This document shows positions 53,357-63,335 of a stretch of 64,000 nt of DNA, in pieces. The position numbers and the translations under genes were made by a program. Under the pieces are notes generated by a model. The model was given only the letters and a program-made list of their open reading frames with translations, was not told the origin of the DNA and did no database searches. Position 1 is the first letter of the stretch. The number at the start of each line of letters is the position of its first letter. The stretch comes from Patescibacteria group bacterium. GTDB lineage: Bacteria; Patescibacteriota; Microgenomatia; UBA8517. The stretch covers positions 62,001 through 126,000 of the forward strand of contig DASZQR010000010.1 of NCBI GenBank assembly GCA_035549555.1, written 5' to 3'.

Positions 53357-54078
53357 TTGTACGAATTGAAAGTGAAGGAAACCGATTACCTGAGAATGAA
53401 AACAAAAAAGACAGTGTTTCAGCTTTATGCAGAGCTCATCTTGCAAGGCAATATTCTATTTCAGTTGCAAAAAAATTTAATTTACCCGCTTTTGAAACAA
53501 TAGTCAAAAATTTAAACTTAAGATTGGTATCAAAAGAAGAATTAAAAGGTAGACTGGATGCTGTAGCAGGGGAATATCGAACAAAAAACGTTTTTATGCC
53601 AATATCCCCAGTCTCACCGCCACAACCAGAAGATGTTCCTTATTTAATGAAAAAATTAGGAGTAGCATCTGATGAAAAAATAAAAGCGATAGATTGTAAA
53701 AAAGTCGCTGGAATTGAAATTGGAAAAATTTTAGAAACAATGTCATTTACCCATTACTGGATGGCACGCATTCATCCCTTCAGAGAAGGAAACGGTCGAG
53801 ACGCTAGAGAAACAAACGCTTTACTATCTATCAGAACCGGTCTTCCAATAATTATCATTGGACCTGTAGATAGAGATGAATATATTAAAACGCTTAACAC
53901 AATACATTTTTATACTTATTTAAACGACAAATTAGAAGCTGACCTTAAACCGTTAACATTGTTTCTTGGAAGAAGAATGCTAAGATCGTTTCCAAATTCT
54001 AATTTATCAAAACCGCAAATGGTTCAAAGAGAAAAACTTATATCATATATTTCTAAATTAGATTCTGATATAAAATAA
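53353..54078 (+). CDS. Fic-family protein 1
   Basis: 241 aa. The Fic core has HPFREGNGRDARETN (about 136-150), the AMPylator-type loop with the catalytic His. The N-terminal part (about 1-60) is helical and no (S/T)xxxE(G/N) inhibitory motif was found in it. Likely transfers AMP, or another nucleotide phosphate, to a target protein. Coupled to the small gene upstream by 4 bp. It resembles the domain in Doc/Fic toxins. Confidence 0.8.
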   Translation: MIVRIESEGNRLPENENKKDSVSALCRAHLARQYSISVAKKFNLPAFETIVKNLNLRLVSKEELKGRLDAVAGEYRTKNVFMPISPVSPPQPEDVPYLMKKLGVASDEKIKAIDCKKVAGIEIGKILETMSFTHYWMARIHPFREGNGRDARETNALLSIRTGLPIIIIGPVDRDEYIKTLNTIHFYTYLNDKLEADLKPLTLFLGRRMLRSFPNSNLSKPQMVQREKLISYISKLDSDIK

Positions 54079-61134: not shown

Positions 61135-61473
61135 ATGTCACCAGATCAAAAACCAGAAATTCAAAAACAAAATAATCCAGCTAAAAATTTGTTAGCCCAT
61201 GTTCATGAACTTTATAAAGTTGGATTGCAAAAAGATTTAGCTTTGTTGAACTTATTAGAACAACCTACACCAGAGAATGAAAATACATATAACCAAAAAC
61301 GTTTGCAATACGATGACATCCAAGAAAGAATAAATACTTCAACTAACGAAGAAAAAGAAGAAGCGTTAATTTTATTAATAGAAGAACAGGAAGAAATAAC
61401 CAAAAGACATGAAAGTAAGATGAGAGAAATGTCAGAAGCCAGAATTACTATTTCAAGGATACCTGCTAAATAA
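61135..61473 (+). CDS. Unknown coiled-coil protein
   Basis: 112 aa, Glu/Lys/Gln-rich, nearly all helix with a likely coiled coil (about 60-105). No family recognised. It overlaps the end of the convergent Fic gene by 8 bp. Confidence 0.5.
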   Translation: MSPDQKPEIQKQNNPAKNLLAHVHELYKVGLQKDLALLNLLEQPTPENENTYNQKRLQYDDIQERINTSTNEEKEEALILLIEEQEEITKRHESKMREMSEARITISRIPAK

Positions 61474-62446
61474 CTTCATAATAAACTCCTCTTGTACTTC
61501 CTCTTTTTCGTATTTGCCCTCCATCTTGCAGTTTTTTCAAATCATATCTTAAAGTTCTTTCATTAACATCTCTAAATCTTCTTCGGATCTGATCAAAATT
61601 AACTAATTTCTGCTCTTTTATAATTTGATAAATCTCAGCCCGCCTCGGAAGCAAAAAATCAGCAACTTGCGGCTCCTGTTTTTGTAAAATATTTTTCTTA
61701 GTAGCGCTTGATGCATCGCGAATTGTCTCAAGCATAAACTCTATATAATTTGTAATATCACGCTCGCTTTCTTCAAGCATTTTGTAATAAGTTTCGCGCC
61801 TTTTATCAATCATTTCTTCAAAAGGCAAAATTCCTTTAAATCCGTAGCCGCTTTTAGCAAGTATCATAAGTAAAAACAACCTGCCAACGCGGCCGTTACC
61901 GTCTGCAAAGGGATGAATTTTTTCAAATGCATAATGAGAAATCACAGCTCTAATCGGCGCAAAAGTTTCCCTGTCTGCATTTGCATATTTGATAAGTCTG
62001 TCAATTAATTTAGGGACATGAGAAGGTGGAGGAGTGTGATAAATCATTACGCCTCCTGCTGCAAACACTCCTTCGTGTTTTTTTCTAAATCTCCCAAGCT
62101 CTTCATATTCGATTCCTTTCATGGTTATAGAATGCAGATTTAAAATATCCTTTACTGTGATATCCCTGCCACTTCGCTCAAAAATCCAGTTAATTGCTCT
62201 TAAAATATTATTTACTTCAACTCTTTTCTGGTCTTTTGAAGGAAGGTGTGCAAAATCTTCAAGCGTTGTTGGATTTCCCTCAATTCGCGCAGAAAAAACA
62301 GAGCTTGCAAGCGTAGATTTGCGCCTTAAGTTTTGTTCTATTTCAATTGGAACCGGGATCGAATCTACGACTTCTTTGTTGGCTTCAATCTCAGCAAGCA
62401 GTTTGCTTATTTGTGGGGTCAAGAAATATTTTGGAGGAATAATCAT
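61466..62446 (-). CDS. Fic-family protein 2 with built-in inhibitory motif and C-terminal HTH
   Basis: 326 aa. The N-terminal Fic_N region holds SARIEGN (about 53-59), the (S/T)xxxE(G/N) motif of class II Fic proteins whose Glu blocks ATP binding. Core motif HPFADGNGRVGR (about 176-187). The C-terminal part (about 265-326) is a winged-helix-like domain (FDQIRRRFRDVNERTLRYDL). AMPylates an unknown target. The repeats before its start suggest the HTH represses its own promoter. TAGCAT lies 6 nt before the ATG. Confidence 0.88.
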   Translation of the reverse strand: MIIPPKYFLTPQISKLLAEIEANKEVVDSIPVPIEIEQNLRRKSTLASSVFSARIEGNPTTLEDFAHLPSKDQKRVEVNNILRAINWIFERSGRDITVKDILNLHSITMKGIEYEELGRFRKKHEGVFAAGGVMIYHTPPPSHVPKLIDRLIKYANADRETFAPIRAVISHYAFEKIHPFADGNGRVGRLFLLMILAKSGYGFKGILPFEEMIDKRRETYYKMLEESERDITNYIEFMLETIRDASSATKKNILQKQEPQVADFLLPRRAEIYQIIKEQKLVNFDQIRRRFRDVNERTLRYDLKKLQDGGQIRKRGSTRGVYYEVI

Positions 62447-62457
62447 TACCTAATGCT

Positions 62458-62497
62458 ACCAGATCTTGCCAAATATTGCCATATATCGCCAGATATA
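62458..62497. repeat. Four tandem 10-bp repeats in the fic promoter
   Basis: CCA occurs at 62459, 62469, 62479 and 62489 in units ACCAGATCTT, GCCAAATATT, GCCATATATC and GCCAGATATA. On the minus strand they are TGGC.ATAT-type units overlapping the -35/-10 region of fic. A period of exactly 10 bp puts all units on one face of the helix. Confidence 0.75.
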
Positions 62498-62515
62498 ACA
62501 CATAAATTTATTATC

Positions 62516-62544
62516 TTGTGACTACAAAAAATATAAGTTATTAT
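62516..62544 (+). promoter_or_regulatory. Leaderless promoter of the FKBP gene
   Basis: TTGTGA (62516-62521), 17 bp, TATTAT (62539-62544), 6 nt, ATG 62551. Confidence 0.7.
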
Positions 62545-62550
62545 TCTTTT

Positions 62551-63081
62551 ATGAAGGTTTCAGCGAAAGTGGTGTTCGCAATAATTGCAATAATTGCAGT
62601 GCTTGCAATTGTTGTTCGAAATGTTAAAGTTGGTGGAGACGAAGGTGTAAATAATTCACCAAGTCCTACAATTACAACAATGAACGATAATTCAAATCAA
62701 ACACCAAGTGCTACAAGTTCGGCAACTCCAAACGGATTGCAAATCACAGACGAGGTGGTTGGAACAGGCGATACCGCAGTTGCCGGTAAAATGGTTACGG
62801 TAAATTATTCAGGTACATTAACAGACGGTACTGTATTTGATTCAAATACAGATCCAAAATTTCAACACGTAACTCCCTTTAGTTTTGATCTTGGAGCAGG
62901 TGAAGTAATAAAAGGCTGGGATGAAGGCGTTGCCGGCATGAAAGTTGGAGGAAAACGAAAATTAGTTATCCCTCCAGATTTGGGTTATGGAGCATATGGT
63001 GCTCCTCCATCTATTCCAGGAAATGCAACGTTAGTCTTTGAGGTTGAACTTCTCAAAGTTGAGCAAATTCTAGGCAATTAA
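62551..63081 (+). CDS. Exported FKBP-type peptidyl-prolyl isomerase
   Basis: 176 aa from ATG 62551 (MKVSAKVV). The frame opens at GTG 62518, which overlaps the -35, so it is rejected. Membrane segment about 5-23, a Ser/Thr/Pro/Asn linker (about 34-62), then one FKBP domain (about 65-170) with [36 protein letters not shown] and IPPDLGYG. Helps fold proteins outside the cell. Confidence 0.93.
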
Positions 63082-63095
63082 TGCTAGAATAAATC

Positions 63096-63335
63096 ATGAC
63101 CAATAATCAAATGCTCCAGGCAATCTTTGACACAGTTTCTAGCTTACGAAATGAAATAAAAGACTTAAGAAACGAAATGAACGACAAATTTAAAAAAGTC
63201 GATGAAAACTTTAAAAAAGTAAATCAAAGACTCAATAAAATCGGTGAATCTGTCGCATATCTTGAAGATGATACTCCAACTCGTAAAGAATTTGAAAACC
63301 TAGAAAATAGAGTTAATAAACTTATTAATAACTAA
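63096..63335 (+). CDS. Small coiled-coil protein
   Basis: 79 aa with repeated heptads (LRNEIKDLRNEMNDKFKKVD, about 13-32). Similar short coiled-coil proteins occur as paralogues in many CPR genomes. TAGAAT lies 5 nt before the ATG. Confidence 0.6.
   Translation: MTNNQMLQAIFDTVSSLRNEIKDLRNEMNDKFKKVDENFKKVNQRLNKIGESVAYLEDDTPTRKEFENLENRVNKLINN

Follow-up and report, generated by a model that had tools for sequence, protein, structure and literature searches.

The 10-bp repeats at the fic promoter of this genome very probably serve as a row of binding sites that let the Fic protein shut down its own gene. Based on a comparison of orthologous loci, we consider with good confidence that they form an operator array for the C-terminal winged helix (wHTH) of the Fic protein itself, and that fic is autorepressed through this array.

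The repeat at this promoter is real. In the window (i.e. the whole stretch of 64,000 nucleotides analyzed here), four 10-bp units, TGGCRAKAT-like in fic sense, occupy positions 62452–62491 of the reverse strand directly 5' of fic. Read from the sequence in fic sense, the intergenic order is TGGCGATATA (unit 1, 62482–62491), TGGCAATATT (unit 2, 62472–62481), TGGCAAGATC (unit 3, 62462–62471), and TGGTAGCATT (unit 4, 62452–62461), followed by AGGTA-ATG. The four units are flanked on both sides by one degenerate unit each, and unit 5 (AGGTAATGAT, 62442–62451, reverse strand) overlaps the fic start codon (62446–62444). On the forward strand, the units appear as CCA every 10 bp, and the claim of an earlier note on this DNA that such units face one side of the helix over the fic promoter is borne out by the sequence and by the orthologs described below. 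The span given there (62446–62544) does correspond to the intergenic region, and the array fills only its fic-proximal half. TRF reports a period of 10 at 62466–62496 with a score of 41, which is unremarkable alone, as 61 TRF rows were obtained in the window at the low threshold used. The period-scan score of 18 at the array was reached by 0 of 200 first-order shuffles, and 2-unit matches with 0 mismatches are found at this site only across the 1.01-Mb genome (16 contigs, 96% complete). Among named relatives of this genome, a Candidatus Woesebacteria MAG was the closest one found. We regard the array as more than chance because it is conserved in orthologous promoters.

The fic gene (61466–62446, reverse strand) encodes a protein of 326 aa (Pfam Fic, 2.8e-20; PADLOC SoFic, 3.2e-50, the best PADLOC model). 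Its translation contains the Fic motif HPFx[D/E]GNGR as HPFADGNGRVGR (HPFADGNGR), and the N-terminal inhibitory motif [S/T]xxxE[G/N] as FSARIEGN (residues 51–58), which is kept in orthologs. The AlphaFold2 model (pLDDT 92.9) has a C-terminal winged helix after the Fic core, with helices at residues 267–279, 284–290, and 296–308 plus wing strands. This domain, placed at residues 262–326 (61469–61663, reverse strand) by a domain search and AlphaFold2, has a weak HTH_20 match, and residues 296–308 (61523–61561, reverse strand) form its predicted recognition helix. Foldseek matches of the protein include 4rgl, 7xux (CccR, among the top matches), and 3eqx (SoFic). Judged from sequence and model, the protein combines the three features of class II (SoFic-type) Fic proteins, i.e. 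the Fic motif, the inhibitory motif, and the C-terminal winged helix. A further weak match to the SoFic profile (E = 1.5e-10) is present on the forward strand at 53416–53904 of the window (G000:C10:115416–115904).

A class-wide search identified fic orthologs in 102 of 373 genomes, and the 10-bp repeat is kept upstream of most of them: the lag-10 score is at least 10 in 93 of the 102 orthologous promoters (91%), compared with 1 of 444 control windows (0.2%). Across these 102 promoters, lags 10 and 20 are the only ones to stand out, with a mean score of 17.5 at lag 10 vs ~4 at most other lags. The earlier note named an absence of such repeats from orthologous promoters as the outcome that would refute its idea, and the orthologs show the opposite. 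Five same-family orthologs (48–68% identity) all have period-10 repeats before fic. Arrays comprise 3–8 scored units, mostly 4–5, and matches to the GG pattern (see below) that adjoin fic are on the fic strand. Another Fic subfamily, with a different wHTH, has no period-10 arrays in the same genomes. In a phylum-wide sample, the ortholog is found in 9 of 380 genomes; 5 of these belong to the class surveyed above, and one of the 5 is the genome of the window. A contig scan with the window's Fic protein returned a single relative, apparently the same locus as L012. This comparative evidence, which comes mostly from draft genomes with predicted start codons, suggests that, throughout a class of uncultured Patescibacteria, self-operators are the rule in this Fic-wHTH family.

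The units follow the consensus N1 N2 N3 Y A A N A T N, in which the AAnAT half is common and N2N3 vary among genes. In a mutual-information (MI) scan of all 326 columns of the protein, corrected by label shuffling, the top-ranking column is 300 for N2 and 297 for N3, and both residues are on the recognition helix in the AlphaFold2 model. In the window's protein, these putative specificity residues are R297 (codon 61558–61556, reverse strand) and R300 (codon 61549–61547, reverse strand). Specifically, proteins with R..R at residues 297..300 have GG at N2N3 in 59 of 62 cases, K..H goes with TC (10 of 12), R..H with TG (5 of 5), and K..K with AC (2 of 2). The S..H class is noisy (TC in 6 of 11), and R..S or R..A proteins have AG, TG, or mixed N2N3, with mixed units in three RS proteins. 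Some RR proteins are without a clear GG array (L016, with TAACAGTAT, L051, and L059). A helix of the form xLHRDLQ (X1 = L or V) in L133, L134, and L137 goes with a further unit class, TTATCGTAT, which was seen by eye only and left unscored because the template forces AA at N5N6. It appears from these sequences that residue 297 sets N3 and residue 300 sets N2, i.e. a two-residue/two-base code.

Shared ancestry raises the MI background, with other columns at 0.4–0.6, and a tree was therefore built from the Fic domain without the wHTH. On this tree, residue 300 changes 7 times, and among 4 well-supported independent pairs N2 follows residue 300 an average of 3.9 times and never in the opposite direction; the sign test is underpowered, with 4 pairs for N2 (P = 0.125) and only 2 pairs for N3. 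The residue–base rule was recorded before the wHTH-only searches, and loci found later were scored with the same template; their upstream regions were chosen with the hypothesis known, which makes this a consistency test and not a strict blind trial. Later loci that agree with the rule are L208 (RR/GG, 3 units), L227 (RH/TG), L238 (KH/TC), and L241 (SH/TC). For L240, with a previously unseen S..R, the additive rule predicts GC, and N2 is G in 3 of 4 units while N3 is tied between A and C. N3 is C in 3 of 3 units at L237 (K..Q), L236 and L239 are RR/GG with two units each only, and L244 is RR/GG at a decayed locus. L242 (Q..H) is outside what the template could score, and L182, L192, and L193 are not counted as tests of the code because they were found by the GG pattern itself. 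If the code is true, R297K combined with R300H would shift preference from TGGCAATAT to TTCTAATAT units, and R300H alone would shift it to TTGCAATAT units; as such, a specificity held by two helix residues is open to simple swap tests.

The array goes with the wHTH and not with the enzyme, because stand-alone wHTH genes (L182, L192, L193, L208, L227, and L241) and core-less genes keep it. The latter encode short proteins in which an inhibitory helix (SARIEGN-like) is fused to the wHTH without the catalytic core (L140, L179, and L238), and their arrays are of the expected type, L179 itself having been found via the GG pattern. These three proteins could be natural anti-Fic regulators or decay products. 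The 3-unit GG pattern is present in 63 of 373 genomes, and the reversed pattern, used as a control, in none. In a manual tally of 65 GG sites, 57 could be assigned to fic or wHTH loci, live or decayed: intact or contig-edge fic genes account for 46, fic fragments for 3, stand-alone or core-deleted wHTH genes for 4, and sites before wHTH fragments for 4. At L181, L184, L187, L194, and L196, the array is directly followed by ORF fragments from a wHTH or fic gene, and these "fossils" suggest repeated gene deletion with the array left behind. The array provides a sequence signature for finding both live and dead fic/wHTH loci. The other 8 GG arrays have no adjoining wHTH gene or remnant, and 2 of them precede unrelated genes, one directly before a polysaccharide flippase (L189) and one before a CobO-like adenosyltransferase (L191). 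No wHTH match at E ≤ 1e-11 is found in the genomes of these two loci (G010 and G267), and their arrays may be captured promoters or chance. Distant membrane-anchored wHTH proteins (L211, L212, and L218) have no array. The earlier note had proposed that the Fic winged helix binds the repeats, and conservation, the covariation with residues 297 and 300, and the retention of arrays by stand-alone and core-less wHTH genes all argue for such binding.

The array also overlaps the likely promoter. In 58 promoters, the last unit is at most 12 nt away from the start codon. Among these, T occupies N4 in 46 last units, compared with 16 of the next units, where C prevails (C 34, T 16, and A 8). A T at this position gives a TGG-TAATAT-like extended −10, and therefore this unit probably also serves as the −10 of a near-leaderless transcript. 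In the window, unit 4 can also be read as a putative extended −10, TGG TAGCAT (hexamer at 62458–62453, reverse strand).

Under the operator model, one winged helix would occupy each 10-bp unit, with N3 set by residue 297, where the recognition helix begins, and N2 by residue 300, one turn later. Because the spacing equals one helical turn, several Fic monomers could sit side by side on one face of the DNA, and because the units are direct, they would do so in a head-to-tail row, probably cooperatively. This row would cover the −10 up to the start codon, and a filled array should therefore block RNA polymerase and repress fic. Autorepression of this kind may serve to keep a potentially toxic SoFic-like AMPylator scarce until it is needed. 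The array, its conservation, period, and fixed orientation, the covariation, the core-less retention, and the −10 overlap are computed, and we infer physical binding, cooperativity, and repression. A broader scenario can be offered only tentatively, and we find it more doubtful than the operator itself: a self-contained, evolvable operator in which a two-residue/two-base code governs recognition of the tandem 10-bp array. Monomers lined up head-to-tail on it would repress fic and might also keep the AMPylator inactive while it is bound to DNA, and array and wHTH would outlive the enzyme core, giving rise to stand-alone autorepressors and possible anti-Fic regulators. The array as such has implications for the control of potentially toxic Fic proteins in the absence of a separate antitoxin.

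Several other readings of the units were weighed. Activation of fic by its bound product, instead of repression, is unlikely: arrays also reach 5' of the likely −10, and in some genes they lie well upstream of the predicted start, but in the 58 scored cases the array extends to 12 nt or less from the start codon, overlying the likely −10, and CccR represses through an operator near the −35/−10 (PMC9755527). An unrelated transcription factor that binds the array and controls fic would be compatible with an operator model built on sequence comparison, and with the few arrays before non-wHTH genes (L189 and L191). We nevertheless find it quite unlikely, as the bases of the units change together with two residues that belong to the Fic wHTH itself and are the top two of 326 columns, and as stand-alone wHTH genes have their own array. 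It is very unlikely that the units are tandem promoters, i.e. repeated extended −10-like boxes (TGGTAATAT), and not operators. The start-proximal unit does resemble an extended −10 and lies 6–8 nt away from many start codons, but the C that most other units have at N4 spoils the −10 hexamer, other unit classes (TTCTAATAT, TACTAATAT, and TTATCGTAT) are without TGn, and the 297/300 covariation would be left unexplained. The chance that slippage produced a functionless tandem repeat is practically negligible; the TRF score is modest in isolation, but diverged units keep a common motif and an exact register in orthologs across the class.

The earlier note had also tentatively linked fic repression to export folding, through the divergent gene for an FKBP-type PPIase with an apparent signal/TM segment (62551–63081, forward strand; Pfam 4.8e-34). 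It is highly improbable that the array coregulates this gene. The distance from the array to the FKBP start is only ~60 bp in this genome, but the units stop before the likely FKBP core promoter (TTGTGA-17-TATTAT, 62516–62544), and among 35 fic loci checked with flanks of up to 1.5 kb, an FKBP homolog is near fic only here and in none of the other 34. The FKBP gene was therefore rejected as part of the system. Beyond it, a 21-bp period repeat (63143–63185) lies inside a short coiled-coil-like ORF (63096–63335).

The proposed autorepressing operator array can be compared with known systems. The view that autorepression by Fic-HTH proteins through such arrays is little described holds, as CccR was the only Fic-HTH autorepressor found in the literature searched, and its operator geometry is different. 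CccR of Yersinia pseudotuberculosis (PDB 7XUX) is a Fic-HTH toxin, autorepressor, and T6SS effector, whose HTH binds its own promoter near the −35/−10 and represses it, according to EMSA, footprint, and lacZ assays, and whose dimer recognizes an operator made of two inverted AGATAATCAT boxes with 26 bp between them (PMC9755527). The window's Fic protein shares with CccR the Fic core with a C-terminal HTH and the inhibitory S..E motif, and this precedent, together with the comparative support above, makes the proposed autorepression of fic probable. Nothing suggests that the window's protein is a T6SS effector. In contrast to the paired inverted boxes of CccR, the array has 3–8 direct units with a 10-bp period. 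Because the CccR dimer binds a wide inverted repeat, a different geometry must be assumed for the array, which would represent a new operator architecture.

SoFic, a class II Fic-wHTH protein, acts in anti-phage abortive infection, and no operator is described in that study (PMC12249575). The window's protein has the same architecture as SoFic, the SoFic PADLOC match, and a structural match (3eqx/3zcn), but its identity to SoFic is ~22%, and its score (64.8) lies below the NCBIfam SoFic equivalog cut-off (550). Head-to-tail binding of wHTH proteins to direct repeats of about one turn is known for BldC of Streptomyces, which binds as monomers to a variable number of repeats (PMC5859096), and for RdfS/Xis filaments (PMC11963761). 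The array resembles BldC sites in its direct repeats of about one turn and in their variable number (3–8 scored units here), a functional analogy that implies no claim of homology. By contrast, BldC is a MerR-type wHTH protein without an enzyme domain and reads 9-bp AATT-type sites partly by shape, whereas the array seems to be read through a pairing of two residues with two bases. The Phd-Doc locus of a Fic/Doc-fold toxin is also self-repressing, with a separate antitoxin that binds DNA; here, by contrast, the Fic protein carries a DNA-binding domain of its own.

Arrays are also found beyond this family. Among eight non-CPR plasmid Fic proteins (25–35% identity), 7 are without arrays, and the eighth, a SoFic-type gene on a Stanieria plasmid, is preceded by a 10-bp array whose motif differs (TAATTGGCTC-like). 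In the group of this gene (Cyanobacteria and Proteobacteria, including Stanieria), the lag-10 score is at least 10 in 5 of 9 cases, and SoFic-type genes on cyanobacterial and proteobacterial plasmids (L254, L288, L289, L293, and L295) have 10-bp arrays of the types AAATGGATAT, TAATTGGCTT, and AAATGGGTGT. Viral contigs contain one exact GG array (L256) without an adjoining Fic gene and only distant Fic relatives; phage records yield only distant, mostly partial Fic matches. On plasmids of Salinivibrio, Azotobacter, and Shewanella, distant Fic relatives (L248, L249, and L250) lie between hsdS and hsdR of a type I restriction operon. The other Fic-wHTH subfamily, which is more widespread and has ~355 aa (L002 and L017–L040; in this genome at G000:C10:777218–778264), has a different conserved upstream element, TTTCCGCA-N-TGCGGTAATAT, in 18 of 25 loci. 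It forms a dyad that overlaps a likely −10, and this dyad may be an inverted-repeat self-operator of that subfamily.
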